DNA of 64,000 bases from Mycobacterium paraseoulense (GTDB lineage Bacteria > Actinomycetota > Actinomycetes > Mycobacteriales > Mycobacteriaceae), in assembly GCF_010731655.1 (NCBI RefSeq), contig NZ_AP022619.1, forward strand, positions 2,666,001 to 2,730,000, in the 5' to 3' direction. The stretch's first letter is position 1. Each line of letters begins with the position of its first letter. Below are positions 29,908 through 57,300 of the stretch, in pieces. A program made the position numbers and the translations under genes. The notes below the pieces were generated by a model. That model saw nothing but the letters and a program-made list of their open reading frames with translations. It was not told the DNA's origin and did no database searches.

Positions 29908-29950
29908 GGGGTGAGCTGTCATCACCCCGATTAATGATTCACCCGGGTGA
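29908..29950 (-). promoter_or_regulatory. Bipartite palindromic element, copy 1
   Basis: Box A TCACCCGGGTGA (29939-29950, minus orientation), 11-bp spacer, then box B GGGTGATGACAGCTCACCCC (29908-29927 read on the minus strand). Architecture is identical to five other copies. It points towards the RidA and NmrA-like genes. Confidence 0.9.
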
Positions 29951-30026
29951 TGCGCCGCGCTGAACCCGCGCGTGGCTGGATGGTCCTGCCGGCGACCGTT
30001 TGCGGTCGCATCGATCGCACGAATGA

Positions 30027-31496
30027 TTACAGCGAAGGTGATGCGTCGCTCGCGGTCAAGGGGCTACCGGCCAGGGCTGGTTGCACACCCGGCCGGTCGC
30101 GGCACAACGCTGCGATGTCGCGGGGCACAGGTTGGCATCCATGGGTCGGATTGGTTATCAACAGTGCGGCGCACATCGCGCCCAAGACGAATAGTGTTGC
30201 GCTGAACTCTAATACGTGGGCGAACCCGGTAGCGCTCGCCGTGCCGAAGCTGATCAGGCCGATGGACCCGATCGATATCAGCGCGGCCAACCGCGAGACG
30301 GCGTTGTTGATCGCCGACGCCAGGCCGCTGTGTTCGGTCGGCACCGAGGCCAGCGTCACCGACACAAGCGGTGTGATCGTCGCGACCAGCCCGATCGCCA
30401 GGACGGTCATCCCGGGGACCAGGTCGGTGATCGCGTGGAATCCCTCGGGCTTCGGGCGGATCAGCAGCAGTCCGATCCCCGCCAAGGCGGGGCCGGCGAT
30501 CAGGAATGCGCGTGGTCCCACCCGCGCGGCGATGCGGCCGACATACGGGGCGAACACGAACGACAGCGCCGGGATGGGCAGGGTGGCCAGTCCGGCCGCG
30601 GTGGCAGAGTAGCCACCGATTTCCTGGGTGTAGAGGGCGATGGCCAGCGATCCCAGCGTCAACGCGCCGTAGACGAATGCGGTGACCAGGTTGGCGGCAG
30701 CGAAGTTGCGAAAGGCGAACAGCGGCAACGGAAGCAGCGGGTGACTGCTGCGGTGCTGCCAGCTCACGAATCCGACAAGTGCGGCGACTCCGATCAATGA
30801 GGGTGTGATGACCATCGGATTGGTCCAGCCGTAACGTTGCGATTCGATCAACGCATACACGGTCGCGGCCAGTCCTACCGCCGATAGACCAATCCCGGCG
30901 GTATCGACACGGGCTCCTACTACCCGTCCCGACATCGGGCACAGCCAGAACGTCAGCGCAAGCCCGACCACCATGGGGACCGCTGACAACACGAAAATCC
31001 AACGCCAGCCCAGATAATCGACGCATATTCCGCCCAGCAGGGGGCCCAAGGCGAAGGCTGTTCCCGTCCACCCGGTCCAGACGCCGATCGCCGCGGACCG
31101 GTGCGCTTTGTCGAAGACCGTGTTGATCAACGCAAGCGAGCCCGGGACGAGGAACGCCGCCCCCAAACCCTGGATGAGGCGCGCGGTGATCAGCATCGCC
31201 GGTGAGGCGGCAGCCGCCGCCAGAACCGAGCCCGCCCCAAAAGCCAACAGCCCGAACCGCATCACCGGGACGCGTCCGAACAGATCCGAGATGGAGCCCC
31301 CGGGCAGAATCGTGGCCGCCATCGCCAGCAGGTAGCCATCGACGATCCATTGCTGCAGCGCCAGGCCGCCGCCGAGGTCCTGCTCGGTGGCCGGCAAGGC
31401 CAGGTTGATCACGGTGGAGTCGAGGAACGCGACCATTGACACCATCACCGCCACCACCATCGCGCGGCTGGTCGGTGCCGCGTCGCGCAACGTCAC
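30027..31496 (-). CDS. DHA2-type MFS drug/proton antiporter
   Basis: EmrB/QacA-like efflux permease, 489 aa, with about 14 predicted membrane helices. It shows the DHA family motif FLDSTVINLALP at the N-terminus, GSISDLFGRVPVMRFGL (motif A) and LIQGLGAAFLVPGSLALI. It exports small toxic or signalling molecules; the substrate is unknown. It starts with GTG at 31496, just after a truncated RidA gene, and lies at the end of the long minus-strand operon controlled from 36.8 kb (inference). Confidence 0.85.
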   Translation of the reverse strand: MTLRDAAPTSRAMVVAVMVSMVAFLDSTVINLALPATEQDLGGGLALQQWIVDGYLLAMAATILPGGSISDLFGRVPVMRFGLLAFGAGSVLAAAAASPAMLITARLIQGLGAAFLVPGSLALINTVFDKAHRSAAIGVWTGWTGTAFALGPLLGGICVDYLGWRWIFVLSAVPMVVGLALTFWLCPMSGRVVGARVDTAGIGLSAVGLAATVYALIESQRYGWTNPMVITPSLIGVAALVGFVSWQHRSSHPLLPLPLFAFRNFAAANLVTAFVYGALTLGSLAIALYTQEIGGYSATAAGLATLPIPALSFVFAPYVGRIAARVGPRAFLIAGPALAGIGLLLIRPKPEGFHAITDLVPGMTVLAIGLVATITPLVSVTLASVPTEHSGLASAINNAVSRLAALISIGSIGLISFGTASATGFAHVLEFSATLFVLGAMCAALLITNPTHGCQPVPRDIAALCRDRPGVQPALAGSPLTASDASPSL

Positions 31497-31565
31497 TGCC
31501 GGCGCCGCTGGGCGCGGGACGATGACTGCGCGCCAGACAAGTTGCGTACGCTGGTCATTGGCAGA

Positions 31566-31772
31566 TCAGAGCGTCTCGGTCAAAGCTTCAGGCGAACTGG
31601 CCCAGCACTGCCGGGCTTCGTCGGTGAAGCCCTCGGGGAGGGTGCCGCCTTCGCGCACTTCCGGGGTTCCGGAGACGAAAATCTGTGTACCGGCGGCAGA
31701 TACGACGACAGCATCTGCGTATTCGCCGACGTGATCGGCCACTCCGGTGCGGATCCGGGTGATGGTGGTCAT
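31566..31772 (-). pseudogene. Truncated RidA/YjgF-like gene
   Basis: A 68-aa ORF with a good ribosome-binding site (GGAG before ATG 31772) reads YADAVVVSAAGTQIFVSGTP and FTDEARQCWASS, the first half of a RidA-family protein (usually about 130 aa). It stops at LTETL, and another frame then continues briefly (DLPMTSVRNLSG) before the MFS gene. I interpret this as loss of the second half by deletion or frameshift. A translated half-protein cannot be excluded. Confidence 0.6.
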
Positions 31773-31807
31773 CTCGATACTCCACGGTGGTGTGAGGGCG
31801 TTTTCGG

Positions 31808-32781: not shown

Positions 32782-32806
32782 TGTGGTTCCTCTCACGGAT
32801 CGACGT

Positions 32807-34291: not shown

Positions 34292-34339
34292 TAACCCTCG
34301 CTTCCGATGATCGGTACGCGCAGCCGTGCCTGAACCGAT

Positions 34340-36484: not shown

Positions 36485-36729
36485 TACAGGTCCTTCCTGA
36501 TGCGGGTTGTTGTCGTGGGGTTGGCCGCGGGCTCTGGTTGTACGCTGACGAGCTCAAGGCCTAAATCACGGACCCGTTCGAGGAGTCCGTAAAGCTGTGA
36601 CTGGTCGCGGATTTCACCAGTGAACACCGTTTCGGTCGCACCGGCCTCGAAGCGCATTCCTTCCAATGCGGATCCGAGCCGCTCGGTCACGCGGCCTTGA
36701 ATGCAGATCCGGTACATCGTTGGCCGCAT
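36484..36729 (-). CDS. Small conserved protein with MYRICIxGR start, first gene of the redox operon
   Basis: 81-aa hypothetical protein beginning MRPTMYRICIQGRVTERLGS and containing FTGEIRDQSQLYGLLERVRDLG, which looks like a two-strand/helix ACT-like fold. The ATG at 36729 has a strong GGAGGG site; the frame is open back into the upstream palindrome but that extension is unlikely to be translated. Overlap with the downstream MDR gene (TAATG) shows it is part of the operon. A shortened relative begins another operon at 39133. Function unknown. Confidence 0.75.
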   Translation of the reverse strand: MRPTMYRICIQGRVTERLGSALEGMRFEAGATETVFTGEIRDQSQLYGLLERVRDLGLELVSVQPEPAANPTTTTRIRKDL

Positions 36730-36771
36730 TTGCCCTCCGCTCGCCAGCTGCCGATCAGCATTCACCGGCGC

Positions 36772-36814
36772 GGGGTGAGCCGTCATCACCCGGCGAGCGA
36801 ATTCACCCGGGTGA
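36772..36814 (-). promoter_or_regulatory. Bipartite palindromic element, copy 2
   Basis: Box A TCACCCGGGTGA at 36803-36814, 11-bp spacer, box B GGGTGATGACGGCTCACCCC at 36772-36791 (minus strand). It ends 42 bp upstream of the ATG of the 81-aa gene that opens the redox operon. Confidence 0.92.
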
Positions 36815-39133: not shown

Positions 39134-39189
39134 TGTCGGCTTCCAAGTACCGTCCGCTCGCGATGCGTTAAGCCAGCGTTCATCGACGT

Positions 39190-39232
39190 GGGATTAGTGG
39201 TCATCACCCGGCGACCTGATTCACCCGGGTGA
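39190..39232 (-). promoter_or_regulatory. Bipartite palindromic element, copy 3
   Basis: Box A TCACCCGGGTGA at 39221-39232, 11-bp spacer, box B GGGTGATGACCACTAATCCC at 39190-39209 (minus strand; the right arm is degenerate, TAATCC for TCACCC). It precedes the 38-aa/zinc-ribbon operon. No other gene was found in the 312 bp from 39134 to 39445. Confidence 0.88.
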
Positions 39233-39445: not shown

Positions 39446-41275
39446 TTACGCGATGCCGTAGTCGTTTATCTTGCGGTAGATCGTCGCCCGCGACATTCCC
39501 AGGGCCCGAGCCGCCTCTTGCTTGTTGCCGCCGTTGTCTTGCAGGCTACGGACAATCGCGTCACGTTCGAGGGCCTCCATTTGGGTCAGCTTCCGCCGCG
39601 TGATGGACCGGCATTCCGGTGGCAACTTGTCGGCGCTGATGATGCCCGATCGTTGGCGGGCAACGGTTTCGGTGAGAACCCGCCGTAGCTGCGCGACGTT
39701 GCCCGGCCACGGCAGCCTGCTGAGTTGGCGCATAGCGTCGGGTGCCAGCTCCACACCCGCACCCCGGGTGATCTCGCGCAGCAACACCGGCACCAATTCC
39801 TTGAGGTCGTCAATCCTGTGTCGCAGCGCCGGCACTGTGACGGTATGGGTGAACAGCGGCAGCATCTCCTTGACCGGCGCCGTAGGTGACGCGGAACTTT
39901 TCGTCGCCGCGATCCAGCCCCGGCCTGCGCGCATGGCCAGCATCGAGGTTATCGATTCGAGTGTGTCGTTATCGATGTCGTCCACGTCGGCGATCACCAG
40001 TGCGAAGTCCTCGTCGCCCGACTCAGCCGCCAGCTCGGCGACAAGACGCGCCGCGCTGGGAAACGTCTCGGCGCGCAGCACCCGAACGGTTCGGCCCGGT
40101 TTCACGTACTGCCCCACCGCCTGGGCCAGGCGCGCCCGGCCGGAGCCTTTCTCCCCCTCGATCATCACCCAGTGTCGGTCGCTGCAGCACTGCCGCACCT
40201 GCTGACAGCAGCGCAGCCAGGCGCCGTCGCGACCGGCCAGGCCGGGGATTTGAACGCGCGACGAACGGGCCATTTGAGCACGCCGCAAGCTCGTTTGGGG
40301 CGAAAGATCAACGTGGAAAACGACATTGGCCCGGGCGCCGCGAATCATCGAGCGGTCGACGGCGGTGATCTTGGCGATCTGTCCGCTTGGCAGAACAGCA
40401 AGCGCCGTGCCCGAAAGCGTGGAGCTGACTAGGTCCGAAGCGTGTTCGAGCAGCACGGTCTGATCGTTACCGTGAAGCGTCCGACGCAGATAGGGGTTCA
40501 TCAACACCACGTCGCCGCCGATCGCAAGGACCCCACCGGAACATCGCCGTGCCTGCTGCAGATATGCCTCCAACAGCGCGGTCTCACCCTCATGAGCCAC
40601 CACGCGCATACGATCCTCAATTTGGCGACCGGCGCTGGTAGCCAACGCAAGCAACAATGGATAGGATTCGTCGGCCCGACAACTCAGGTTAACGGCGCCG
40701 ATTACCTTGCGCGTTATAGGATCTCGGATCGGCGTCCCCGCGCAGGTGAAACCGGTGAACATTGCGACGTAATGCTCGCCACCACGGATGAACGCGGGCC
40801 GCCCGGTCTCCAGCGCGGTGCCAATCCCGTTGGTGCCCGCCACTTCTTCGGCCAGACTATAGCCCGGTACGAGGCTCACCGTGTCCAACGCGTTGAGGAT
40901 GGATCCTTCCGCGGCGGTCCGTTCAACCACCACCCCGTCGGTTGATGTCAGGACAACGCTCACAGCCTGCGCAGCCAGGTCGTCGGCAACGCGCTGCAGC
41001 ACCGGCGCGGCCGCACGCGCCAACCGCGAGCCCGTATCGGGTTCACGCACGTACGGAAGCTCGACCCGGTCGGGGTGTACGCGCAGGGCCTGCGACCGAC
41101 GCCACGAGTCCAGGACACTCGGCTGCAGAATGTCATCACCGAGTGGGCCCACCGCGTCCACGGACACGACGGACAGGAACTTTTCTCTGGCGGTCCCTGC
41201 GTCCCAGGACCCTTCGCCCAAGAACCGCTCCCTAGCCCGGCGAATGTCGGTTTGGACGTCGGCCCGCGAGCTCAT
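39446..41275 (-). CDS. GAF-AAA-Fis transcriptional regulator (AcoR/MimR-like) with degenerate ATPase
   Basis: 609-aa regulator with an N-terminal GAF-type sensor (around LALATSAGRQIEDRM and FTCAGTPIRDP), a central NtrC-like AAA domain and a C-terminal Fis helix-turn-helix (NKQEAARALGMSRATIYRKIND). The ATPase core is eroded: Walker A reads GEKGSGRAR, lacking the Lys-Thr/Ser, and no GAFTGA loop is present. This fits the sigma54-independent actinobacterial branch. The ATG at 41275 is chosen as first good Met; the frame runs to 41320. It likely controls nearby catabolic or redox genes through binding upstream of its own promoter. Confidence 0.82.
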   Translation of the reverse strand: MSSRADVQTDIRRARERFLGEGSWDAGTAREKFLSVVSVDAVGPLGDDILQPSVLDSWRRSQALRVHPDRVELPYVREPDTGSRLARAAAPVLQRVADDLAAQAVSVVLTSTDGVVVERTAAEGSILNALDTVSLVPGYSLAEEVAGTNGIGTALETGRPAFIRGGEHYVAMFTGFTCAGTPIRDPITRKVIGAVNLSCRADESYPLLLALATSAGRQIEDRMRVVAHEGETALLEAYLQQARRCSGGVLAIGGDVVLMNPYLRRTLHGNDQTVLLEHASDLVSSTLSGTALAVLPSGQIAKITAVDRSMIRGARANVVFHVDLSPQTSLRRAQMARSSRVQIPGLAGRDGAWLRCCQQVRQCCSDRHWVMIEGEKGSGRARLAQAVGQYVKPGRTVRVLRAETFPSAARLVAELAAESGDEDFALVIADVDDIDNDTLESITSMLAMRAGRGWIAATKSSASPTAPVKEMLPLFTHTVTVPALRHRIDDLKELVPVLLREITRGAGVELAPDAMRQLSRLPWPGNVAQLRRVLTETVARQRSGIISADKLPPECRSITRRKLTQMEALERDAIVRSLQDNGGNKQEAARALGMSRATIYRKINDYGIA

Positions 41276-41329
41276 CGACGCATGTACCTCGCTCCCGCCC
41301 GTACGGTGCAGCCGCCCCACAATACCCGC

Positions 41330-41876: not shown

Positions 41877-44800
41877 ATGAGCGTCAAGCCGGCGGCTTCT
41901 GCCACGTATAATGCCTCGAATCATGCCCGCACACCCGGGCGCGCCAATGTGCCTAGTCCATCGCAACACGGTGTCGCACGCGCGATGCGTGCTGAAGCGG
42001 CCGTCCGGCCCGACAAGCCCAATCGCGCTATCCACGAGGATCCGTTCGGCTTCCGGGATTCGGAGACCGCCGACCCGGGGGCGGCGGTTCGCGTGAGCAT
42101 CGCGAGGCCGTCGGGGAAGGTGCGCATACCGCCGATTCGGGGGCGGGCAGACGAGCTGAGGGTGGTCGGCGGGCTGATCGAGGCGGTCGCTCAGGGGCGC
42201 GGGGGCGTACTGGTCATCGAGGGGCCGCCGGGCATCGGCAAGAGCCGGTTGTTGACCGAGGTCTTGGCGATCGCCGAGAAGGCCGGTGTTCGGGCACTGT
42301 TCGGCGAGGCGTTCGAGTACCAGCAGACGGTGCCGTTTTTCTCGCTCTTCATGGCGACACTGCGCGCGGATCCCCCCGTCGGTGATGCGGAGGCGTTGCG
42401 GCGCTTGGGCACGTCGGCCGATCTCCGCTTCTGGGTGGTGCGCGATCTGCAAGCCGCCATCCATGCGGCCGCGTCACGGAAACCCTTGGCGATCCTCCTC
42501 GAGGACATCCACTGGGCCGATAACGCGACCCTGGTGGCGCTGCGGTCGCTGGCCGCGACGCGGCCCGATGTCCCCGTGTTGTGGGTGCTTACCGCGCGAA
42601 CCGGCGCCGGCGGACCGGCCGTTCGCGAGACGCTGACGGCGCTGGAACGCGAGGATGCCAAATTTCTGCGGTTGACGGCCATCACACCGAACGCAGTCGC
42701 CGACATCGTGCAGGACGCCGTGCGAGCCAACGCGGATGCTTCCCTTCTAAGTCTGGCCGGCAAATCGCACGGCAACCCGTTCCTGCTAACGGAGTTGCTG
42801 CGAGGCCTGGACGAGGACGGCCGGCTCAATGTCAGTAGGGGCAGCGCGGTCGCCACTGGAGACACATTGCCGCGACGGCTCAGCGACACCATGCAGCAAC
42901 GACTCGACCAGCTTTCCGAGACTGCGAGCCAAGTCGTACGGGTAGCCGCCGTGCTGCCTGACCTATTCTCGGTTCCGTTGCTCGCCGCGATGCTGGAACG
43001 CAGACCGACCGCCCTGGTATCGGCGGTAGAAGAGGCTGTCCGCGCGGATTTGTTGATCGAAGACGGGGACCAGATGAGGTTCGGTCACGATCTGCTGCGC
43101 GAGGCGACGCGGCAATCTTTGCCCCAGTCGCTGCGCCGCGCGATGGAGCGGCAATCGGCAACCCTCATGCTGGACATGGGGGCGGCGCCCGAGGAGGTCG
43201 CAACCCAGCTCGCCCGCAGCGCTGAGGTGGGTGATCAGGCCGCGATCGCCGCCCTCCGCCAAGCGGCACAGGCGGTGGCGAATAGCGATCCCAGCGCTGC
43301 GTCCGACTTGAGCAAACGCGCGTTGGAACTATTGCCGCCGCAAGACCCAGGACGTGGGCCACTGGTGACAGAAACGATCGTGCTGCTCAATCGGGCAACA
43401 CGCTACGAGGAGGCGCAACGGTTGGCGAGCGCCACCCTGTCTGGCGCGCTGGCACCCGAAGAAGAGGCCGAGATCCGCCTCCGGATGCCGACGGTGACCA
43501 CGGATACGACGACGCGACACATCGAAGAGAACCGCCGCGCACTTCAGTTGCCCCACCTCAGCGACGTCACCCAGGCACGACATCGGGCATGGTTGGCGTA
43601 CAACCTGGCGATGTACGGCCAACACGGACAAGACAACGCATCAGCCAAGGATGCCGCGGCCGCCGCCGCTTCCACCGGCGATGTGGAGTCGCGCATTCTG
43701 TCCGGAATAGCACTCGCCTGCCTCGACTGCGCGAATGGCTACGCGGGCCGCGCCCTGCACCGCGTCGAGGAACTCCAAGCTTTGACCCCCGCGGACGATA
43801 TGACCGCACATCACCTCGCTGCGATCCACCTGACAAACCTGCTCGCCGTGGTCGGACGGTTGGAAGATGCGGCGACGCTAGTCGCGGACCGCACAGAAAA
43901 ATCCCAGAAGGAACGCGACGGCATGGCGCTTCACATCTGGGGCCTGACGGCGGGGGTGGTGCACTTGGCTGCCGGCCGGTTGTCGGCTGTCCGCGCCGCC
44001 GTCGAGCGGCTGCCAACGCCGGATCGAACGGGGTCGACCTACGTAGACACGAGGCGCATGTGCACCCTGGCGGAGGTGGCGGCGCGCACCGACGACCGAA
44101 CGTTGTTCGTAGAGACGGTGGCCGAAGCGCGCGACGCGTACTCCAACGGTTCACCAGCCGTACGTCGCGAGGTGGCGGGTGTGTTAGGGCTGGCGGCGTG
44201 GCAGCGCGACGACGTGCATGAAGCGGTGCGGTGGCTCGGGAGCGATATATCGCTGCTCGTGACACCGATGCTGCCCAGCGTCTTTGATCAGCTGACCCTG
44301 ACCGCGCGGGTGGCGTCCGCCGCCGGTGATGCCGGCCTGCGCGCACGTCTCTTGGACGCCGTTGACGTGCTCGAACGCGAGCGGCCGGGGGTTCGGTTGT
44401 TCGCCACAGTCGCCCAACACACCCGCGGGATCCTCGCGCGTGATGCCGATGCGTTGGCCGCCGCCGCGGAGTCACTCCGCTCCACGTCGCGGCCGCTCCT
44501 TTACGCAGGCGCTGCCGAAGACGCCGGCGGCGAGCTGAGTCGCACAGAGCACAACGCCGAGGCGCTCGACCAGCTGAACGCGGCATTCGACACCTATATC
44601 GAATGCGAAGCGATTGCCGATGCCCGCCGCGTCGGCCGTGTCCTGCGCCGATTAGGCGTGGAACGCCGCATCGTCACCCACCCGCGGGCAAAGACGGGCT
44701 GGGACAGCCTCACCGACTCCGAACTCACGGTCGTCCATCTCATCGCACAGGGCGCGACCAACCGCGACGTCGCGCAGCAACTGCACCTCTCCCCCCACAC

Positions 44801-44888
44801 CGTGAAGACCCACGTCCACAACGCGTTTGCCAAGCTGGGCATCACTTCCCGCAGCCAATTGGCGCAGCTCATGCGCGGCGCTGATTGA
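41877..44888 (+). CDS. STAND-type LuxR family regulator, paralogue 1
   Basis: Large ATPase regulator (up to 1003 aa). Walker A IEGPPGIGKSRLLTEV, Walker B LAILLEDIHWADN, a winged-helix region (RQSLPQSLRRAMERQS), TPR-like helices and a C-terminal LuxR HTH (LTDSELTVVHLIAQGATNRDVAQQL, then SPHTVKTHVHNAFAKLGI). The first 85 residues are low-complexity and absent in the paralogue, so the true start may be MRAEAAVRP or the GTG before SIARPSG. Signal-dependent multimerisation is family knowledge; signal and targets are unknown. The segment 42129-42410 is identical to the paralogue. Confidence 0.85.
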   Translation: MSVKPAASATYNASNHARTPGRANVPSPSQHGVARAMRAEAAVRPDKPNRAIHEDPFGFRDSETADPGAAVRVSIARPSGKVRIPPIRGRADELRVVGGLIEAVAQGRGGVLVIEGPPGIGKSRLLTEVLAIAEKAGVRALFGEAFEYQQTVPFFSLFMATLRADPPVGDAEALRRLGTSADLRFWVVRDLQAAIHAAASRKPLAILLEDIHWADNATLVALRSLAATRPDVPVLWVLTARTGAGGPAVRETLTALEREDAKFLRLTAITPNAVADIVQDAVRANADASLLSLAGKSHGNPFLLTELLRGLDEDGRLNVSRGSAVATGDTLPRRLSDTMQQRLDQLSETASQVVRVAAVLPDLFSVPLLAAMLERRPTALVSAVEEAVRADLLIEDGDQMRFGHDLLREATRQSLPQSLRRAMERQSATLMLDMGAAPEEVATQLARSAEVGDQAAIAALRQAAQAVANSDPSAASDLSKRALELLPPQDPGRGPLVTETIVLLNRATRYEEAQRLASATLSGALAPEEEAEIRLRMPTVTTDTTTRHIEENRRALQLPHLSDVTQARHRAWLAYNLAMYGQHGQDNASAKDAAAAAASTGDVESRILSGIALACLDCANGYAGRALHRVEELQALTPADDMTAHHLAAIHLTNLLAVVGRLEDAATLVADRTEKSQKERDGMALHIWGLTAGVVHLAAGRLSAVRAAVERLPTPDRTGSTYVDTRRMCTLAEVAARTDDRTLFVETVAEARDAYSNGSPAVRREVAGVLGLAAWQRDDVHEAVRWLGSDISLLVTPMLPSVFDQLTLTARVASAAGDAGLRARLLDAVDVLERERPGVRLFATVAQHTRGILARDADALAAAAESLRSTSRPLLYAGAAEDAGGELSRTEHNAEALDQLNAAFDTYIECEAIADARRVGRVLRRLGVERRIVTHPRAKTGWDSLTDSELTVVHLIAQGATNRDVAQQLHLSPHTVKTHVHNAFAKLGITSRSQLAQLMRGAD
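42129..42410. repeat. 282-bp block identical to 45028-45309
   Basis: Every base from CCGCCGATTCGGG to CGCTTGGGC matches the copy 2899 bp downstream, while flanking sequence diverges immediately on both sides (ATA versus ACT to the left, ACGTCGGCC versus GGCTCGGCG to the right). It covers the Walker A region of both LuxR paralogues. Compared by eye over the whole block. Confidence 0.9.
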
Positions 44889-44976: not shown

Positions 44977-47784
44977 GTGGGGCCTCGAACCGGCCTTTTT
45001 GATGTCGGCGGTCAGCGGCTGGTCACTCCGCCGATTCGGGGGCGGGCAGACGAGCTGAGGGTGGTCGGCGGGCTGATCGAGGCGGTCGCTCAGGGGCGCG
45101 GGGGCGTACTGGTCATCGAGGGGCCGCCGGGCATCGGCAAGAGCCGGTTGTTGACCGAGGTCTTGGCGATCGCCGAGAAGGCCGGTGTTCGGGCACTGTT
45201 CGGCGAGGCGTTCGAGTACCAGCAGACGGTGCCGTTTTTCTCGCTCTTCATGGCGACACTGCGCGCGGATCCCCCCGTCGGTGATGCGGAGGCGTTGCGG
45301 CGCTTGGGCGGCTCGGCGGATCTGCGCTACTGGGTGGTGCACGATTTGGCCGACGCGATCTATGCGGCGGCCGCGGAAACCCCGCTGGTGATTGTGTTGG
45401 AGGACGTCCACTGGGCCGATAACGGCACGGCCCTGGCGCTGCGGTCGCTCGCCACAGTGCGCGCAGACGTTCCGGTGTTATGGGTATTGACCGCCCGCAC
45501 CGGGGCGGGCGGTCCTGCGGTGCAGGAAACCTTGTCGGTGCTGCACCGCGCCGATGCCACATTCGTGCGATTGGCTGCCATGGCGCCGGACGCCGTCGCC
45601 GACATGGTCTGCGACGCCGTGCGGGCGAGGGCTGACGGGCCGCTTTTGGATCTGGCAGCCAAGGCACACGGAAATCCGTTTTTGGTCACCGAGCTTGTCG
45701 GAGGGTTGGGCGAGGAGGGCCGGCTCAATCTCTCCGGCGGCCGTGCGACGGTCACCGGAGACGGGCTGCCGCGGCGTCTGGGCGCGACGATGCACCAGCG
45801 GCTGGACCTGCTTTCCGGCGAGGCGTCAGAGATGGTGCGGGTGGCCGCGGTGCTGCCCGACCGGTTTTCGGCTGGCTTGTTGGCCGCGATGCTGGAACGG
45901 TCGCCCGCGTCGTTGCTGTCGGCGCTCGAGGAGGCGGTGCGCGCGGATCTGCTCGTGGAAGATGGTGAGCAGCTGAGGTTTCGGCATGACTTGCTGCGTG
46001 AGGCCACCCGGCAATCGTTGCCGCAGTCGCTGCGGCGGGCGATGGAGCGCCAATCGGCGTCGGTCATGCTGGGGATGGGCGCGGCTCCAGCCGAGGTGGC
46101 CACCCAGCTAGCGCGCAGCGCAGAGCCCGGCGACACCGAGGCGATCGGCGCGCTGCGGCAGGCCGCTCAGTCGGTGGGCCGGGGCGATGCGAGCGCGGCG
46201 GCGGACTTGTGCAAGCGCGCGCTGGAGCTGTTGCCCGCCGGTGACGCTGAGCACGGGTCATTGGTCGCTGAAGCGGTAGAGCTACTGAACCGGGCCAGCC
46301 GCTACGGCGAGGCCGAAAAATTGGCCGTTGCGGCGCTCTCGGAGGCGGCCTCTCCCGAAGAAGAGGCTGAGATTCGCCTCCGGCTCCCAACTCTCACCAA
46401 ACACAGTGCCCAGCGGCGGGTGGAGGAGAATCGCCGCGCGCTGCAGTTGGGCGGCATCAGCGAGGTCACTCGGGCACGGCACCTGGCCTTGCTGGCTTAC
46501 AACCTGCTCTTCGACCAACGGGATCAACACCGCCTCGCGGCCGAAGAGGCCGCCGCGGCCGCGGCATCGACCGGTGATCCAGAAGCGAAAATCGTGGCCG
46601 ATGTCACCCTCGCTTGTCTCGACTGTGCGGACGGGTATGCGGGCCGCGCCCTACTCCGCGTCGAAAAGGCTTGCGCACTCGCCCGCGCGAGTGTTCCGAC
46701 GGCAGCCCATGACTTGGTCGCGGCGCACCACGCGAATCTACTGGCGATAGTCGGTCGGTTGGACGACGCCGCGGCCCAGATCTCAAACGGAAAAGAGAAA
46801 GCCCGCGGGGAACGCAACGCGATGGCCCTTGATATTTGGGTTGATATCGACTCGTGGGTCCATCTCGCCGCGGGCCGGTTGTCGGCGGCTCGCGCAGCGG
46901 CTGAATCCTTGCCGCGCCATCGGCGGACAGGCGCGGCCGACCTGGATATGATCCGCATGGCGCTTCTGGCCGAAGTGGCGGTGCACACCGATGACCGAAA
47001 CCTGTTGCAGCAGATGGTCAATGATGCTCGTGACGCTTACCCTACCGGCGCATCGTTGGTACGCCGGGCGGCGGCGCAGGTGCTCGCGCTGGCGGCGTGG
47101 CAGCGCGACGACGTCCATGACGCGATGCGCTGGCTAGGTGACATCACCCTGCTCGGGACACCAATCACGCCCGAGGTTCTAGATCTGGTGATCTTGGGTG
47201 CGCGGGTGGCCTCGGCCGCCGGTGATGCCGGCTTGCGTGCACGGGTCCTGCAGGCCGCCGAGGTGCTCGAGTGTGAGCAGCCCGTGGTGCCGCTGCTGGC
47301 GGGAGTGGCCGGATATGCGCGCGGGATACTCGGGCGCGACGCCGAGGCATTGGTGGCTGCCGCGGACGTGCTTCGTACGTCTTCGCGGCCGCTGCTCTAC
47401 GCGGGCGCTGCCGAGGACGCCGGCGCTGAGCTCGCGCGCATCGACCGCGCCGACCGCGCGCTCGACCAGCTGAACGCGGCATTCGACACCTACATTGAGT
47501 GCGAAGCGCTCGTCGATGCCCGCCGCGTCGGTCGCGCGCTGCGCCGCTTGGGCGTGGAACGCCGCATCGTCACCCACCCGCGAGCAAAAACGGGCTTGGA
47601 CAGCCTCACCGATTCCGAGCTAAAGGTCGTCAATCTTATCGCTGCGGGCGCGACCAACCGCGACGTCGCCGCCGAGCTGCATCTCTCTCCCCACACGGTG
47701 AAGACGCACGTCCACAACGCATTTGCCAAACTGGGCATCGCCTCCCGCACCCAGTTGGCGCAGCTGATGCGCGGCGCTGATTGA
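44977..47784 (+). CDS. STAND-type LuxR family regulator, paralogue 2
   Basis: 935-aa homologue of the preceding gene with the same layout: Walker A GPPGIGKSRLL, Walker B VIVLEDVHWADN, helical repeats and a C-terminal LuxR HTH (LTDSELKVVNLIAAGATNRDVAAEL). Start is GTG 44977 (MGPRTGLFDVGG). Outside the identical 282-bp block the two proteins are clearly similar yet diverged. The pair looks like a tandem duplication with later conversion. Regulated genes unknown; downstream tiny genes and the hydrolase operon are candidates. Confidence 0.87.
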   Translation: MGPRTGLFDVGGQRLVTPPIRGRADELRVVGGLIEAVAQGRGGVLVIEGPPGIGKSRLLTEVLAIAEKAGVRALFGEAFEYQQTVPFFSLFMATLRADPPVGDAEALRRLGGSADLRYWVVHDLADAIYAAAAETPLVIVLEDVHWADNGTALALRSLATVRADVPVLWVLTARTGAGGPAVQETLSVLHRADATFVRLAAMAPDAVADMVCDAVRARADGPLLDLAAKAHGNPFLVTELVGGLGEEGRLNLSGGRATVTGDGLPRRLGATMHQRLDLLSGEASEMVRVAAVLPDRFSAGLLAAMLERSPASLLSALEEAVRADLLVEDGEQLRFRHDLLREATRQSLPQSLRRAMERQSASVMLGMGAAPAEVATQLARSAEPGDTEAIGALRQAAQSVGRGDASAAADLCKRALELLPAGDAEHGSLVAEAVELLNRASRYGEAEKLAVAALSEAASPEEEAEIRLRLPTLTKHSAQRRVEENRRALQLGGISEVTRARHLALLAYNLLFDQRDQHRLAAEEAAAAAASTGDPEAKIVADVTLACLDCADGYAGRALLRVEKACALARASVPTAAHDLVAAHHANLLAIVGRLDDAAAQISNGKEKARGERNAMALDIWVDIDSWVHLAAGRLSAARAAAESLPRHRRTGAADLDMIRMALLAEVAVHTDDRNLLQQMVNDARDAYPTGASLVRRAAAQVLALAAWQRDDVHDAMRWLGDITLLGTPITPEVLDLVILGARVASAAGDAGLRARVLQAAEVLECEQPVVPLLAGVAGYARGILGRDAEALVAAADVLRTSSRPLLYAGAAEDAGAELARIDRADRALDQLNAAFDTYIECEALVDARRVGRALRRLGVERRIVTHPRAKTGLDSLTDSELKVVNLIAAGATNRDVAAELHLSPHTVKTHVHNAFAKLGIASRTQLAQLMRGAD
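45028..45309. repeat. 282-bp block identical to 42129-42410
   Basis: Second copy of the perfectly conserved block shared by the two tandem LuxR genes; see the entry at 42129. It encodes residues around IRGRADELRVVGGL through DAEALRRLG of this protein. Confidence 0.9.
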
Positions 47785-48282: not shown

Positions 48283-48294
48283 CCGCCGGTCACG

Positions 48295-50604: not shown

Positions 50605-53154
50605 GTGAGCGGGCACAGCGCGAGCGCAATTCACGAGAAAATCCTCGAGCCGTTGGCGGCAGATGCATCCGTCGGCCGAAACGGGCACCGCCGGCGTTCG
50701 CCGGATGAAATCGGGGAGAACCGATCCGATTCGCTAGGATTACCGGGATTGCCGGGCCGAACGAGCCCGCCCGAGCCTGCAGAGAATAACTGGGATGCCG
50801 AGAAGCCAGCGCCCACCCGAGCGCCGTCGACGAGGCTTCCCGCCCGGCCGCTGGGTTCCACGGATTCGCAAAGTTCGGACATGACCGGCTCGGCTGGACG
50901 CGGCGACAACCGCGCGGGCGAAGCCGGCGCGCGAGCGGTTCTGCTCGCCACCAAGCTTCACGCCCCGGCTATGGGGGCCCAGCTCATTCACCGGGCCACC
51001 CTGCTGGACGTACTGTCGGCGGGGCGCCACCGCAAGCTGACCCTGTTGAGTGCGCCGGCGGGCTGGGGCAAGACCACCGTACTGGCGCAGTGGGCCCTGG
51101 CCGCAGGCGAGGACGACCGCTTTGGCTGGTTGTCGCTTGATTCCTCCGACAACGATCCCGTGTGGTTTTGGATGTACGTGATCGCCGCCCTGCAGAACAC
51201 GAGTCCCGGGGTGGGGATCCGCGCGGTCGAACTCCTCGCGATGGGCGCCGACCCCGTGCAGGTCGTGCTGCCGACGCTGCTGAATGATCTCGACACAATC
51301 GACAGCCCGATGGTGCTGATCCTGGACGACTACCACATGGTGGTAAGACGGGCGGTCCATGACCAGCTGGCGTTCTTCGTCAGCCGGTTGCCGGCGAATC
51401 TGCACCTGGTACTAGCCACCCGATCGGATCCTTTGCTGCCGTTAGCGCGGCTGAGGGCCCGCGGCGACCTGGCCGAGATGCGAACCGACGATTTGCGTTT
51501 CGGGGCCGTTGAGGCCGAGCATCTGCTCAACGATGTCCTCGGGTTGGACTTGACTCACGCAGACGTTCGACTGCTGCACCGACGCACCGAGGGGTGGGCT
51601 GCCGGCCTCTACCTTGCAGCCCTGTCGCTTGCCGGGCGTGCTGACACCCCCACGTTCATCAAGACGTTCGCCGGGGACAACCGTCATATCGTCGACTACT
51701 TGATGGCCGAGGTGCTTGACGGTCAGCCGCCGCACCTGCGCAGCTTCTTGCTACGTACGTCGGTCTTGGGACGGCTCAGCGGTCCGCTGTGCGACGCGGT
51801 GCTGCAAACGTCTGGTTCCGCGTCGGTATTGGAGCAGATCGATTGCGAAAACCTTTTCGTGGTGCCACTGGACATGTCGCGTGAGTGGTATCGCTACCAC
51901 CAGCTGTTCGGAGAGTTGCTGCGCACCGAGCTGCGCCGCACCGAGCCCGGTCTTGTCCAAGATCTACACCGACGAGCCGCGACCTGGTTCGAGGCCGAGG
52001 GCCTCATCGATGAGGCGGTCCGCCATCTGGTCGATGGAGGCGACATCGCGCGCAGCGCTGATCTGATCGCGGCGGACTGGGCCGATGAATTCAACGGTGG
52101 CGGCGTGTCGACGGTCTCCGGCATGCTTGACCTGCTTCCCGAAGAGACCGTTCAACAGGACCCGCGGCTGAGCGTGGCCCGCGCGTGGATTGCCCTGAGC
52201 ACTGGTCAACTCGATGACGCGGCGGACTGGATCGAGGCAGTGGAGACACGATCCGGGGCCGGCACCGCGGATGGTGACGCCATCAGTGCTCAGGTCGTCT
52301 TGTTGCGTGCGGCCCACTCGTTCAAGACAGCCGAAGTCGCCGCGGCGCTTGAGACGGCGCACCGGGCGATCACCCTCGAACTCGGCGACGCGCCGCTGGG
52401 CCGAGCAAGCGCCTACTGCATCTATGGATCCGCGCTGTACTTTTCGGGCAGCACCGACGAGGCACGAGCTGCCTTCCTGCGGGCCCTGGAGCTGGCCGAG
52501 AAGGTGGGCGATCGTCGAGCCCGCTCCTACGCCTTGGGCCATCTGGCGCTGATTTCGGCCGAAGATGGCCGGCTCGCCGATGCCGAACGCCAGATCCGCC
52601 GGGCTTCCGGCAGTTCTCGGGACCTGGCGAATGCTGAACACCTCGTGGACGTGATGGTGTCGCTTGCCACGGCCGAGGTCCTGCGTGTGCGCGGCGACGC
52701 GGCGGCGGCGGCCGCTGCGGACATGGCCGTCATGGCGGCCCGCCAGGGTGGAGCAATCCTCGAGGTGGCCAAAGCGCTGGTGGTCCGGGCACAGGTCCTC
52801 GAGCATCTCGGCGACCACCAGACCGCGCAGGCCGTCCTCGACGAAGTCGGCACTCTGATGCACGATTGCGCGGACGCCGGCATCGCCTCGAGGCTGCTCG
52901 CTTCGGCCGGGTCGAGCGGGCGCGGTGCGGGCACTGCCCGCACCGGGGGGTGTATCGCGGGTGAGGAGCTGACCCCCAAGGAGCTCGAGGTTCTTCGCTT
53001 GCTCGCCACCCGGTTATCGCGACGTGAGATCGCCGAGCGGCTATACGTCTCGCTCAATACCGTCAAGACCCACCAGCGCGCGGTGTACCGCAAACTCCGC
53101 GTTGAGCACCGCGGCGCGGCGGTCAGCCGGGCGCGAGAACTCGGCCTGTTGTAA
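50605..53154 (+). CDS. MalT-like LuxR family ATP-dependent regulator
   Basis: Large LuxR regulator of the MalT type (849 aa from GTG 50605, preceded by AGGGGAGA). Walker A is SAPAGWGKTTVLAQW, Walker B MVLILDDYHMV, then the MalT-like RLRARGDLAEMRTDDLRF and EGWAAGLYLAALSLAGR. TPR-like repeats follow, and the C-terminal HTH reads LTPKELEVLRLLATRLSRRE and LYVSLNTVKTHQRAVYRKL. The first 110 residues are polar and low-complexity. Its promoter carries the same operator as the GAF-Fis regulator gene. Effector unknown. Confidence 0.88.
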   Translation: MSGHSASAIHEKILEPLAADASVGRNGHRRRSPDEIGENRSDSLGLPGLPGRTSPPEPAENNWDAEKPAPTRAPSTRLPARPLGSTDSQSSDMTGSAGRGDNRAGEAGARAVLLATKLHAPAMGAQLIHRATLLDVLSAGRHRKLTLLSAPAGWGKTTVLAQWALAAGEDDRFGWLSLDSSDNDPVWFWMYVIAALQNTSPGVGIRAVELLAMGADPVQVVLPTLLNDLDTIDSPMVLILDDYHMVVRRAVHDQLAFFVSRLPANLHLVLATRSDPLLPLARLRARGDLAEMRTDDLRFGAVEAEHLLNDVLGLDLTHADVRLLHRRTEGWAAGLYLAALSLAGRADTPTFIKTFAGDNRHIVDYLMAEVLDGQPPHLRSFLLRTSVLGRLSGPLCDAVLQTSGSASVLEQIDCENLFVVPLDMSREWYRYHQLFGELLRTELRRTEPGLVQDLHRRAATWFEAEGLIDEAVRHLVDGGDIARSADLIAADWADEFNGGGVSTVSGMLDLLPEETVQQDPRLSVARAWIALSTGQLDDAADWIEAVETRSGAGTADGDAISAQVVLLRAAHSFKTAEVAAALETAHRAITLELGDAPLGRASAYCIYGSALYFSGSTDEARAAFLRALELAEKVGDRRARSYALGHLALISAEDGRLADAERQIRRASGSSRDLANAEHLVDVMVSLATAEVLRVRGDAAAAAAADMAVMAARQGGAILEVAKALVVRAQVLEHLGDHQTAQAVLDEVGTLMHDCADAGIASRLLASAGSSGRGAGTARTGGCIAGEELTPKELEVLRLLATRLSRREIAERLYVSLNTVKTHQRAVYRKLRVEHRGAAVSRARELGLL

Positions 53155-53386: not shown

Positions 53387-53429
53387 TCACCCGGGTGAAT
53401 CGGCGACCCGGACGATGACAACTCACCCC
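53387..53429 (+). promoter_or_regulatory. Bipartite palindromic element, copy 4
   Basis: Box A TCACCCGGGTGA at 53387-53398, 11-bp spacer, box B GGACGATGACAACTCACCCC at 53410-53429. It ends 22 bp before the ATG of the degenerate SigH-like gene. The 230 bp before it (53155-53386) show no gene. Confidence 0.9.
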
Positions 53430-53451
53430 AGCCTCGGCCAGGATCTGCCCC

Positions 53452-53927
53452 ATGGCAACCGCAGTTGACCGCCCAGAAGACAACCCACTCGACCGCCCCC
53501 GCCGAAGGACTCGCAACGCCGTCGATGCCGTAGACCTCCTGCAGGAAACGATGTTGAGGGCTTGCACCGGCCTCACACCTTCTTCGACCGAACCAAGCTT
53601 CGGGCGTCGCTGTTTCGCATCATGACCAACATCTACGTCAACGGTCTGCACCCCGCGCAACACCGCCCGAGCGAGTGCCGCACCCACCGGCAGCTAGCCG
53701 GCCCGGAGCGACGCTATTCGCAAGGATTGGCCGAACTCGATGCACTGAATGTATTGCCCGACATCCAACTCCCCGGCGCGTCGGTGACATCACCAAAGCA
53801 GTTCCGGCCAGCCTTTTACTACCGCGATATCGCAGGACTTCGGCGCCGCGCGGTCGCCGAAATCGTGGCGCGCTGCGAAGGCAGCACCGCCGCTTCACGT
53901 CGGCACCGCGGGCGCCAACGATTATGA
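53452..53927 (+). pseudogene. Frameshifted ECF (SigH-like) sigma factor pseudogene
   Basis: Two frames together resemble SigH-type sigma factors. The first, from ATG 53452, has DAVDLLQETMLRA (region 2) and ends at a TGA at 53623. The second, overlapping from about 53562, reads TKLRASLFRIMTNIYVN (region 2), AELDALNVLPDIQL (linker) and KQFRPAFYYRDIAG, with a worn ending RHRGRQRL that recalls the SRLHRGRRQL of region 4. The family match is by eye. At least one frameshift lies between 53560 and 53600, and region 4 is eroded, so no functional sigma factor is made. Confidence 0.7.
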
Positions 53928-54391: not shown

Positions 54392-54518
54392 TCACATACA
54401 CGCCTGTGCTGACGGATGTACGTCGGTGGTTCGCGTCGGTGTTCTGCACATGTCGCGCGGGTCCGCGTACTGAGCAAGGGATTTTGAGACATATCGTCCA
54501 ACGACGAAAGGAGCGGTG

Positions 54519-54830: not shown

Positions 54831-54845
54831 TCACAACCGAGTGTC

Positions 54846-54888
54846 TCACCCGGGTGAGCTGCACCCGCGGATGATGACAGCTCACCCC
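54846..54888 (+). promoter_or_regulatory. Bipartite palindromic element, copy 5
   Basis: Box A TCACCCGGGTGA at 54846-54857, 11-bp spacer, box B GGATGATGACAGCTCACCCC at 54869-54888. It lies about 140 bp upstream of the RclC-like gene start. Confidence 0.9.
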
Positions 54889-55030
54889 TCGCGCAGAGAT
54901 AGTGATCACTGATTTGAGCTACGAGGGCGAACCGCCTGGATCACCGTGTCGACGAACTGCGCCGCCACCGAAGGCAGTGCGAGATTCGCCGGCAGCGATG
55001 CAGCGAAACGACACAGAGAACGGAGACCGC

Positions 55031-55561
55031 ATGTCACAGCAGGAGGCCACCACCATGCCTACTCATGGTTCAGGAACGTCTCGAACGACTGGCATTGCGC
55101 CCCTGGTCGCACGGTATGGTCTGGTCGTAGTCCTGGCCTGGTTCGGCGCCATGAAGTTCACTTCCTATGAATCCCACGGCATTTCACATTGGGTGGCTAA
55201 TAGCCCATTCTTGGGTTGGGTCTACAACATGATGTCCATCGACGCCTTTGGTCGATTGAACGGATCAGTAGAACTGATTACCGCAGCACTGCTCGCGGTC
55301 AAGCCGTGGTTCCCGAAGGCTTCCGTGGTGGGCGGCGCATTAGCCTCACTGTTCTTCGTGACCACGCTGAGCTTCATGATCACGACCCCCGGGGTCGGTG
55401 AGGCATCTGCCGGCGGCTTTCCAATTTTGTCCGCCGACGGAGAGTTCTTGATGAAAGACATTGCGCTCATCGGCTTGGCGCTGTGGCTGCTGGCGGACGC
55501 GATTGACGCAACCCGGGGCAGAGGACGATCGCCGCAATGGACTGACACAACCCGCCGCTGA
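55031..55561 (+). CDS. DUF417/RclC-like inner membrane protein
   Basis: 176-aa membrane protein that resembles E. coli RclC (YkgB), a DUF417 protein needed for reactive-chlorine resistance. Matching features are FGAMKFTSYESHGISHWVAN, the NGSVELITAALLAVKPWFP helix, and TTLSFMITTPGV with GGFPILSADGEFLMKDIALIGLA. GGAGA precedes ATG 55031. The family assignment is by remembered pattern; the stress role here is inference. Confidence 0.75.
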   Translation: MSQQEATTMPTHGSGTSRTTGIAPLVARYGLVVVLAWFGAMKFTSYESHGISHWVANSPFLGWVYNMMSIDAFGRLNGSVELITAALLAVKPWFPKASVVGGALASLFFVTTLSFMITTPGVGEASAGGFPILSADGEFLMKDIALIGLALWLLADAIDATRGRGRSPQWTDTTRR

Positions 55562-55589
55562 TGATGTTGCGTACGACGAGGAGGCCGGC

Positions 55590-55973
55590 GTGAAGCGCGC
55601 CAACACGCGATTGGCGTCATCGACGACATTGAACTTCGCGAGTCGTGGTTTGCTGGCGCAATCGTGCCGCACGATTGACACGTCGATGATTTCCGACGAG
55701 GACATGGCGTGGACACTGGTCGACACGGTGGGGTCGTGTTTGACCGGCTATGAGCGCTCGAGTGCTTTCGTCGAGTTGGGCTGCGGCGAGAGCTATCTCG
55801 TGATCAAACGTATCCTCACCGCCCTGTTGTCAACCCGAATGGCTTTGCCGGCAACGCTACTCTCAAAGCTGACTGGCTGGCTGAATGGTTACGCCGGCAA
55901 CCCAGACCAGCCCCAACTGCGCATGATGATTGACGTCATTCGCCTGCAGCAGTCCGAGGCGGGTGGGTGGTGA
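55590..55973 (+). CDS. 127-aa hypothetical protein
   Basis: Soluble protein of unknown function starting at GTG 55590, with GAGGAGG directly upstream. The core is ISDEDMAWTLVDTVGSCLTG and FVELGCGESYLVIKRILTAL, then RMALPATLLSKLTGWLNGYAG. Its stop overlaps the thiolase ATG (TGATG), so they form an operon with the RclC-like gene 28 bp upstream. No family recognised; two conserved-looking cysteines flank the centre. Confidence 0.65.
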   Translation: MKRANTRLASSTTLNFASRGLLAQSCRTIDTSMISDEDMAWTLVDTVGSCLTGYERSSAFVELGCGESYLVIKRILTALLSTRMALPATLLSKLTGWLNGYAGNPDQPQLRMMIDVIRLQQSEAGGW

Positions 55974-57211
55974 TGATCGAGGCTTATGTTTTGGGTGGTG
56001 TGCGAACCCCGTTCACCCGTTATGGCGGCACACTGTCGGGTATCCGGGCCGATGACTTGCTGGGTATGACGATGAAGGGCGCCTGCGACCGGCTGGGCGT
56101 ACCGCTCGATGCCGTGGAAGACATCGTGGCGGGTTGCGTGAACCCCGCGCACGAGGGCATGGGCGACGTCGCCCGGTGGGCAGCGTTGGCTGCCGGATTT
56201 CCTGACACGGCGGCCGGATCCACCGTGAACAGATTTTGCGGATCGTCACTGAGCGCGGCGGTGACCATCAGCCACGCGATCAAGGCCGGCGACCTCGGCC
56301 TGGGTATCGCCTGTGGAGTCGAGTCGATGTCTCGATCGGGGTGGGCGCTGATGAAAGGCGATGCCGCCTTCAGTCCCCGAGGTCCGGTGATCATGCTCGA
56401 CACCATGTGGAGCGGCGCCGGCGGTCCGCCCAACCCGGTGTTACTGGCCCGCAACGCTTACATCAGCATGATCGAGACCGCGCAGAATGTCGCCGACCGC
56501 TACTCGCTGAATCGCGAGGAGATCGACGCCTTCGCGCTGCGATCCCAGCAACATGCCAAGGCTGCCCGTGATCGAGGTCGGCTAGCCAAAGAGATTATGC
56601 CCGTGACGATCCCGGCGACGAAGAAGACCCCTGCCCGGGTTGCACAACATGACGAATTCATCCGCGATGACACCACCGCCGAGGTGCTGGCGGGTTTACC
56701 TGCCCAGCCCGGCACGACCCAAATGACGGCGGCGAACTCCTCGCCTTTAAGCGATGGCGCCAGTGCCGTAGTCATCGCTTCCGGGGAGCGGGCCAGGGAA
56801 CTCGGCGTCGAGCCGCTAGCCCGAGTGGTATCGAGCGCGGTTTACGGCATCGACCCTCTCGTCATGGGCGTGGCCCCCGCATGGGCAATTCCGGCCGCGA
56901 TCCGCCGGGCAGGACTTGCTCCCGAGCAGATCGACGTGTGGGAGGTGCACGAGGCGTTCAGCGCCCAGGCGCTCGGCGTGCTGCGGGAATTGCCAAACCA
57001 GCTGGACGGTTTCGTGGTGCCCGATGACAAGCTGACGCCCAACGGTGGCGCGGTTGCGATCGGACATCCCTTCGGGGCTACCGGAACTCGCTATTTGTTG
57101 ACACTGGCGACCGAACTGCGTGAACGAGGCACCCGGTATGGCGTGATCGGGGTCTGCATCGGCTCGGGGCAGGCGGTAGCAGTGGTTTTGGAAAACGTTG
57201 GCGCAGAATAG
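55973..57211 (+). CDS. Acetyl-CoA acetyltransferase/thiolase
   Basis: Thiolase of 412 aa with the acyl-binding Cys in NRFCGSSLSAA, a His in VHEAFSAQ and the C-terminal catalytic Cys in GVCIGSGQAVA, preceded by NGGAVAIGHPFGATG. All catalytic residues are present. It catalyses reversible cleavage or formation of 3-ketoacyl-CoA in fatty acid or ketone metabolism. It follows the 127-aa gene with a one-base overlap. The substrate chain length is not predictable. Confidence 0.9.
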   Translation: MIEAYVLGGVRTPFTRYGGTLSGIRADDLLGMTMKGACDRLGVPLDAVEDIVAGCVNPAHEGMGDVARWAALAAGFPDTAAGSTVNRFCGSSLSAAVTISHAIKAGDLGLGIACGVESMSRSGWALMKGDAAFSPRGPVIMLDTMWSGAGGPPNPVLLARNAYISMIETAQNVADRYSLNREEIDAFALRSQQHAKAARDRGRLAKEIMPVTIPATKKTPARVAQHDEFIRDDTTAEVLAGLPAQPGTTQMTAANSSPLSDGASAVVIASGERARELGVEPLARVVSSAVYGIDPLVMGVAPAWAIPAAIRRAGLAPEQIDVWEVHEAFSAQALGVLRELPNQLDGFVVPDDKLTPNGGAVAIGHPFGATGTRYLLTLATELRERGTRYGVIGVCIGSGQAVAVVLENVGAE

Positions 57212-57257
57212 AAAAGTATGCGTGTACACCGCGCGAACCCGAACCCGTGGGTCGTCA

Positions 57258-57300
57258 TCACCCGGGTGAATCGGTGTCGGGGGTGATGACATCTCACCCG
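57258..57300 (+). promoter_or_regulatory. Bipartite palindromic element, copy 6
   Basis: Box A TCACCCGGGTGA at 57258-57269, 11-bp spacer, box B GGGTGATGACATCTCACCCG at 57281-57300. Both boxes are near-perfect palindromes here. It lies about 150 bp upstream of the SIS-domain gene. Confidence 0.92.

Follow-up and report, generated by a model that had tools for sequence, protein, structure and literature searches.

What kind of cis-regulatory element recurs six times in a 64,000-nucleotide stretch of the Mycobacterium paraseoulense chromosome (contig NZ_AP022619.1, positions 2,666,001 to 2,730,000; hereafter the window), and which protein recognizes it? A first-pass annotation had described the six copies as an undescribed two-box operator defining an island-wide regulon and had left the regulator open among four candidates. 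Our analysis makes it likely that the element represents an activator-dependent promoter class and that the MalT-like STAND ATPase encoded at 50881-53154 switches the operons of the island on together.

All six elements were confirmed, at 29908-29950, 36772-36814 and 39190-39232 on the minus strand and at 53387-53429, 54846-54888 and 57258-57300 on the plus strand, each with a perfect box A, TCACCCGGGTGA, followed after a gap of 11 bp by the GGNNGATGAC of box B. These six places account for every exact match to TCACCCGGGTGA in the window, and with up to two mismatches box A has 16 matches there, compared with a mean of 4.47 and a maximum of 9 in 100 shuffles. The full pattern TCACCCGGGTGA-N11-GGNNGATGAC occurs exactly six times in the whole genome (one contig of 6,085,955 bases), always inside the window, and the reversed-pattern control gave no match in that genome. 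The motif is thus not common genome-wide inside genes, an outcome that had been named in advance as damaging to the idea. As a full set the six copies hold for the exact pattern, but near-copies exist to the right of the window, which ends at genome position 2730000: three with one or two mismatches at genome positions 2731927 (minus), 2734599 (minus) and 2734754 (plus), and a fourth with a 10-bp gap at 2740141-2740172 (minus), ahead of a run of short-chain dehydrogenase, MsrB, MsrA and transaldolase genes. All four lie 2-10 kb beyond the window, so the genome has at least ten sites in total. Among the matches listed in the openly licensed literature, we found no mycobacterial description of the element or of an island regulon and, for TCACCCGGGTGA and three related strings, no title on a bacterial operator.

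Predicted promoter anatomy of the element

The window together with 170 loci supplied 255 distinct copies with at most two mismatches, 229 of which have at most one. Five chance-type two-mismatch matches (L007, L014, L019, L020 and L021) fall inside the 255 and outside the 229, and the nonmycobacterial records L119, L080 and L072 were all kept among the 229. With the first base of box A numbered 0, the box itself occupies positions 0-11, AT often follows at 12-13, GGGTGA lies at 23-28, TGAC at 29-32, a TCACCC arm at 36-41 and, as a feature new relative to the first-pass annotation, the hexamer nAnnnT at 52-57. An A at 53 (-11) and a T at 57 (-7) occur together in 212 of the 229 copies; in other registers between 44 and 79 the same pair reaches 13% once and at most 6% otherwise. 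The hexamer fits a housekeeping-type -10 and ATGACa a -35, with an 18-bp spacer and a predicted +1 near 64.

The G, A and C of TGAC are conserved at 98-100%. The mirror positions of its TGA in the box B dyad are seldom complementary (42, 10 and 9 of 263 copies) compared with the six half-site pairs (157-241 of 263), which places TGAC outside the dyad, and box B behaves, as judged from this pattern, like a GGGTGA half-site fused to a -35-like TGAC. The element had been called palindromic; the downstream TCACCC arm is intact at five of the six places in the window and degenerate (TAATCC) at 39190-39232. With a -10 at a fixed place and TGAC acting as the -35, the element appears to be a complete promoter and not a two-box operator. 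What survives of the original description is a real, island-restricted cis-regulatory element with rigid spacing and conserved boxes that is kept in relatives. Its predicted plan combines a TCACCC/GGGTGA palindrome near -58 with a GGGTGA half-site whose end is near -36 and, in the spacer, a third arm.

Among strand-wise occurrences of box A, box B follows at a gap of 11 in 210 and of 10 in 10 and at no other gap between 0 and 40, and the suspicion that spacing and box conservation might be lost in related promoters was not borne out. When box A is counted by distinct place (232 in all), 214 places are accompanied on one or both sides by a strict box B at gap 10 or 11, and 18 are not; in the gap-10 copies the distance from box B to the -10 is, by eye, unchanged. 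In the fetched loci, five distinct places have a strict box B on both sides of a single box A, so one palindrome may serve two divergent promoters. A shared box A with divergent promoters was seen in genome G046 (C1:1719476-1719529, in L037) and also in G311, G231 and G117.

T at -12 (index 52), the usual first base of a -10, is missing from all 212 copies that have the -10, although nearby T content predicts about 34 such cases, and is present in 1 of the 229 overall; this avoidance suggests selection for weak basal promoters. The -35 (aTGAC) and the -10 (nAnnnT) look too weak to act alone, so a bound regulator would activate the operons. The opposite polarity, with the MalT-like protein (or some other factor) acting as a repressor that blocks access to the -35 until released by an inducer, draws on the fact that the operator spans the -35 and the spacer. 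We consider it unlikely, since avoidance of T at -12 is what promoters in need of help would display and since MalT of Escherichia coli and of Actinoplanes are described as activators (PMC7567727).

Candidate regulators and their distribution

Pfam identifies four regulators of the LuxR or Fis type in the island. The one that fits best, and to which the regulator role is best assigned, is the product of the plus-strand gene at 50881-53154, on the evidence of Pfam, NCBIfam, a match to structure 8bob and co-occurrence with the sites. This 757-amino acid MalT-like STAND/LAL protein comprises an ATPase and arm region (residues 21-437), TPR-type repeats (about 438-680) and a GerE/LuxR helix-turn-helix (HTH) domain (694-757). 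Residues 21-437 match the E. coli MalT structure 8bob (E = 5.7e-58), the Walker motifs PAGWGKTT and ILDDYH align with PAGYGKTT and VIDDYH of E. coli MalT, and SAP-GWGKTT and DDYH are invariant columns in 17 orthologs. The GerE match (2.1e-13, 50.1 bits) is over its Pfam cutoff, as are TPR_8 and TPR_2 over theirs, and TPR_MalT (3.3e-8, 33.6 bits) is under its cutoff of 45. Mean pairwise identity among the 17 orthologs is 88.5% in the HTH domain, 93.5% in residues 720-740, 78.3% in the ATPase and 64.7% in the repeats. An AlphaFold prediction with the 17 orthologs had a poor mean predicted local distance difference test score (pLDDT, 63.8); it was left unused and lends no support. M. intracellulare and M. 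scrofulaceum are among the database names of the close relatives of the regulator (best 120 of 7,969 matches).

Among 100 relatives, the M. paraseoulense genome included, 15 had a match at up to two mismatches and 11, all of the genus, had at least two matches at up to one mismatch. A slightly looser pattern, applied with up to one mismatch to 396 genomes of the genus (again including its own), gave a match in 56 genomes and at least two in 47; its reversed control gave one match in one of the 396. A scan of named genomes returned at least 117 stretches, and nearly all of the 80 listed belong to Mycobacterium, Mycolicibacter or Mycolicibacterium. Orthologs of the MalT-like protein (50% identity or more) were detected in 46 of the 396 genomes, about one in nine of the genus genomes sampled; 42 are full-length and four are broken. 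Here, as for the tandem pair considered below, scoring covered the two best candidates in each genome. All 46 genomes with an ortholog have at least two sites, compared with 1 of the 350 others (G129). Sites number exactly two in each of the four genomes with a broken copy and have a median of 8 (range 2-16) in the 42 with a full copy. Two of the broken copies consist of pieces 13-394 and 670-757 and of pieces 14-188, 177-460 and 693-756. Of all the regulators, only the MalT-like gene is present, at least partly, in each of the eight fetched islands, two of which were taken as 20-kb stretches. The notion that the elements are alike through recent duplication of one promoter, under little functional selection, is scarcely credible: the copies are clustered and very alike, but the gap and the -10 register are kept ahead of many gene families in many genomes while N11 and the stretch at 42-51 vary, and copies fall to two in the four genomes with a broken regulator.

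Two tandem AAA_16-GerE regulators are encoded on the plus strand at 41985-44888 and 44977-47784, and they might bind the element alone or alongside the MalT-like protein. They are located in the island, have LuxR-type HTH domains and, at 59% identity or more, are present in 36 of the 47 genomes that have two or more sites. Their involvement is nevertheless improbable, given 11 genomes with the tandem regulators and zero sites and, conversely, six (G188, G194, G204, G348, G360 and G403) with 4-11 sites and a full MalT-like gene but no tandem regulators. As candidates the pair is not favored, as it dissociates from the sites both ways. The two proteins are 72% identical to each other and occur in most, not all, islands.

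The fourth candidate, encoded on the minus strand at 39446-41320, is an enhancer-binding-protein-like regulator with GAF, AAA lid and Fis-HTH domains. This Fis-type gene lies inside the island, two genes at the right edge of the island belong to the TetR family, and short palindromes suit TetR-type dimers. Recognition of the palindrome by any of these proteins is very improbable. The Fis-type gene (at least 82% identity, or in two pieces) was found in 5 of the 11 site-bearing genomes of the 100-relative sample, five genomes lacking site clusters have relatives of it at 55-61%, and close homologs of the two TetR proteins (83-87%) are present in one of the eight fetched islands; both candidates were rejected on these distributions.

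By analogy with its family, the MalT-like ATPase, once loaded with ATP and an inducer, would oligomerize and activate. The LuxR-type DNA-binding domains of the oligomer would sit on the GGGTGA half-sites: two back to back in box A at about -58, a third overlapping the -35 and ending at about -36, where a MalT-type activator could contact the housekeeping sigma factor, and a fourth within the -35/-10 spacer. The outcome is an explicit operator, a full promoter model and a specific candidate for the regulator; because start sites, half-site effects and the consequences of deleting a single gene all follow from it as predictions, the model can be tested directly.

As for the three nonmycobacterial records, L119 (Xylanimonas) gave no match to the island proteins, and L072 has MalT-like fragments with a -10 that is, by eye, off register. 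In L080, an Acidimicrobiales bin, a full-consensus site with a -10 at 4756-4788 lies beside a 41%-identical MalT-like fragment, a sign either that the element has spread outside the family or that the contig was misbinned.

Relation to the Actinoplanes MalT region and other systems

The first-pass annotation called the element undescribed, a claim that is not supported as far as relatives go: half-site and promoter position match the Actinoplanes MalT motif (PMC7567727). In Actinoplanes, as documented by deletion and overexpression data, MalT is the activator of a 51-gene region that has no maltose genes, and the 3' end of its motif, TCATCC-N5-GGATGA, is 34.4 ± 1.0 bases from the start site (PMC7567727); in the mycobacterial element the distance from GGGTGA to the predicted start is 35 bases. 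The gene for this MalT-like LuxR ATPase lies within the region, which is large and variable and for which the authors proposed horizontal spread, and many promoters there have GGRTGA-type half-sites over the -35, at the same start distance (PMC7567727). In M. paraseoulense, too, many promoters of one region share a half-site over the -35 (ten sites, with GGGTGA ending at about -36), and the MalT-like gene lies inside that region and is conserved with it. The operators differ, with one inverted repeat, TCATCC-N5-GGATGA, in Actinoplanes and zero-gap TCACCC-GGGTGA, 10-11 bp, GGGTGA-TGAC, 3 bp and TCACCC in mycobacteria. So does gene content: arginine, peptide and amino-acid genes in Actinoplanes, and redox, Msr, RclC-like and transaldolase genes here. 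The likeness between Actinoplanes MalT and the 50881-53154 protein is one of description and not of direct protein comparison.

The mycobacterial half-site is GGGTGA, with GGATGA as a variant, and box A has the variant TCATCCGGATGA. TCATCC-N5-GGATGA has no exact match in the M. paraseoulense genome or in the ten other site-bearing genomes of the 100-relative sample; across all 100 relatives it occurs at 26 exact places in 16 genomes. Outside the genus, five genomes encode a homolog of the regulator at E up to 1e-80. In G082 (34% identity), two of three motif places are near the homolog, within 1.5 kb on either side, and in G060 (40%) and G087 (38%) two places each, of five and four, are 19-33 kb from it. 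These three neighborhoods hold 5, 6 and 7 motif places at up to two mismatches, compared with 0-3 in shuffles. In the 35 strand-sites there, which are not independent, an A..T pair 4 apart is commonest at offset 40 (9 cases) and offset 41 (6), compared with a mean of 1.08 over 50 offsets. We read these data as pointing to one lineage of island-borne MalT-like activators in which the operator would have diverged between families and the promoter position stayed fixed. The mycobacterial system is a variant of the MalT-type island regulon, and the comparison suggests that actinobacteria have repeatedly come to place mobile nonmaltose islands under the control of MalT-like STAND ATPases.

In the mycobacterial DosR dormancy regulon, too, a single LuxR-type HTH activator acts through repeated palindromes at many promoters; unlike the protein proposed here, DosR is a response regulator, and its box is unrelated in sequence to the present element. 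E. coli MalT has the same domain plan, aligns over the ATPase region 21-437 and uses a box that overlaps the -35. Its box, GGGGA(T/G)GAGG as quoted in PMC7567727, is arranged differently and has GGGGATGAGG in place of the GGGTGATGAC found here, and the targets here are not maltose genes. IniR is a mycobacterial activator with an ATPase domain, a region like MalT domain III and a LuxR-like DNA-binding domain; it is described as specific for iniBAC and trehalose-responsive (PMC5760070), and is set beside the 50881-53154 protein by description.

Several observations weigh against a MalT-like activator of these promoters. An operator over the -35 equally suits a repressor, and the Actinoplanes motif has neither the zero-gap palindrome of box A nor an arm downstream of the -35. 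Changes in a single arm of box A (TCGCCCGGGTGA, 8; TCACCCGGGCGA, 7; CCACCCGGGTGA, 5) outnumber matched changes in both (TCATCCGGATGA, 4; TCGCCCGGGCGA, 1). The copies and the genomes are related and many copies are orthologous, hence they are not independent. The NCBIfam MalT model scores E = 2.4e-117 and 393.2 bits, under its equivalog cutoff of 537, so the protein is MalT-like and not MalT itself. Regulator and sites share an island, which makes their co-occurrence partly a matter of linkage, and several structural genes are likewise present in all eight fetched islands. G129 has two sites and no detected ortholog, five genomes have one perfect site without an ortholog (sites that we read as relics), and G289 has a full ortholog and only two sites; the ortholog listing excludes short fragments below E of about 1e-66. 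Of the 26 Actinoplanes-type places in the 100 genomes, 6 are near a homolog, and the single motif place in G077 (47% identity, the most similar) and in G092 (37 and 41%) is not.

Predicted promoters, genes and extent of the island

Each copy had been said to lead the first gene of a short operon, which holds roughly but not for 53387, followed by a 57-codon frame, or for 29908, where a 40-amino acid frame comes first. On the minus strand, promoter 1 (29886-29950) has box A at 29939-29950, the GGGTGATGAC half-site and -35 at 29918-29927, TCACCC at 29909-29914, the -10 CATTCT at 29893-29898 and a predicted +1 at about 29886; downstream are the short cupin-like frame, which by eye resembles the end of a cupin protein located behind such a site in another genome, then RidA and an NAD(P)-binding/NmrA-like gene. 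Promoter 2 (36750-36814, minus) combines box A at 36803-36814, GGGTGATGAC at 36782-36791, TCACCC at 36773-36778 and the -10 AATGCT at 36757-36762 with a predicted +1 at about 36750. It is followed by an ATG at 36729 that is preceded by GGAGG and opens an 81-amino acid frame, and then by a PIG3/MDR-type oxidoreductase gene. In promoter 3 (39168-39232, minus), box A is at 39221-39232, GGGTGATGAC at 39200-39209, the degenerate arm TAATCC at 39191-39196, the -10 AACGCT at 39175-39180 and the predicted +1 at about 39168, and the gene downstream, described earlier as zinc-ribbon, has no Pfam match.

The plus-strand promoter 4 (53387-53451) consists of box A at 53387-53398, GGACGATGAC at 53410-53419, TCACCC at 53423-53428 and the -10 CAGGAT at 53439-53444, with a predicted +1 at about 53451 that adjoins an ATG at 53452 (index 65), a leaderless-type arrangement. 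The 57-codon frame that starts there (53452-53625) has, by eye, the look of a decayed extracytoplasmic function (ECF) sigma remnant and is followed by small membrane-type genes. Promoter 5 (54846-54910, plus), with box A at 54846-54857, GGATGATGAC at 54869-54878, TCACCC at 54882-54887, the -10 GATAGT at 54898-54903 and a predicted +1 at about 54910, precedes a DUF417/RclC-like gene and then thiolase. Promoter 6 (57258-57322, plus) has box A at 57258-57269, GGGTGATGAC at 57281-57290, TCACCC at 57294-57299, the -10 CACGCT at 57310-57315 and a predicted +1 at about 57322, ahead of a SIS-domain gene and two pyridine-nucleotide-disulphide-type flavoproteins.

Genes were assigned to sites with a rough script, and for 215 of 252 copies a reading frame on the same strand begins no more than 450 bases away. 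The genes behind the sites, here and in related genomes, encode short-chain dehydrogenase, PIG3/MDR-type oxidoreductase, DUF417/RclC-like protein, flavoprotein reductases, RidA, NAD(P)-binding/NmrA-like protein, SIS-domain protein, thiolase, DUF5709, DUF421, ECF sigma factor, MsrA, MsrB and transaldolase; in relatives, glucose-6-phosphate dehydrogenase, cytochrome bd subunit I and glycogen phosphorylase are added. The Pfam families behind these names are all over their cutoffs except NmrA, and the NCBIfam models for RclC, MerA, RclA, lipoamide dehydrogenase and PIG3 quinone oxidoreductase are under theirs. A redox and energy response is the natural reading of the role of the island, and reactive chlorine or electrophiles as the stimulus can only be guessed at from the presence of RclC, RidA and Msr.

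Within the window the island spans 28131-64000, and it extends roughly another 13-15 kb rightward, as far as genome position 2743100 or so. Its flanking genes, at window 17360-19144 and genome 2743312-2745618, are 58 kb apart in M. paraseoulense and 61 kb apart, with sites between them, in G036. In G006, a genome without sites, the distance between them is about 10.7 kb, and in G010 and G017, where the sites are on another contig, it is about 9 and 12.6 kb; the island therefore appears mobile or relocated. On this evidence, many nontuberculous mycobacteria appear to carry a mobile island, made up mostly of redox and energy genes, that the MalT-like regulator would switch on. More doubtfully, though it is a possibility worth stating, this self-contained island with its own STAND-ATPase switch and private promoter code may be an oxidant-defense and energy package that feeds an ECF sigma cascade; its content includes RclC-like protein, RidA, MsrA/MsrB, a molybdopterin oxidoreductase, several flavoprotein reductases and transaldolase, joined in relatives by glucose-6-phosphate dehydrogenase, cytochrome bd and glycogen phosphorylase. 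If so, a regulated defense against reactive chlorine or electrophiles would be gained and lost by mycobacteria as a unit. In L034, divergent sites lie at 6600-6632 (minus) and 6755-6787 (plus), and the plus copy, a TCATCCGGATGA variant, is ahead of an ECF sigma gene at 7213-7785, an arrangement that suggests a regulator-to-sigma cascade.

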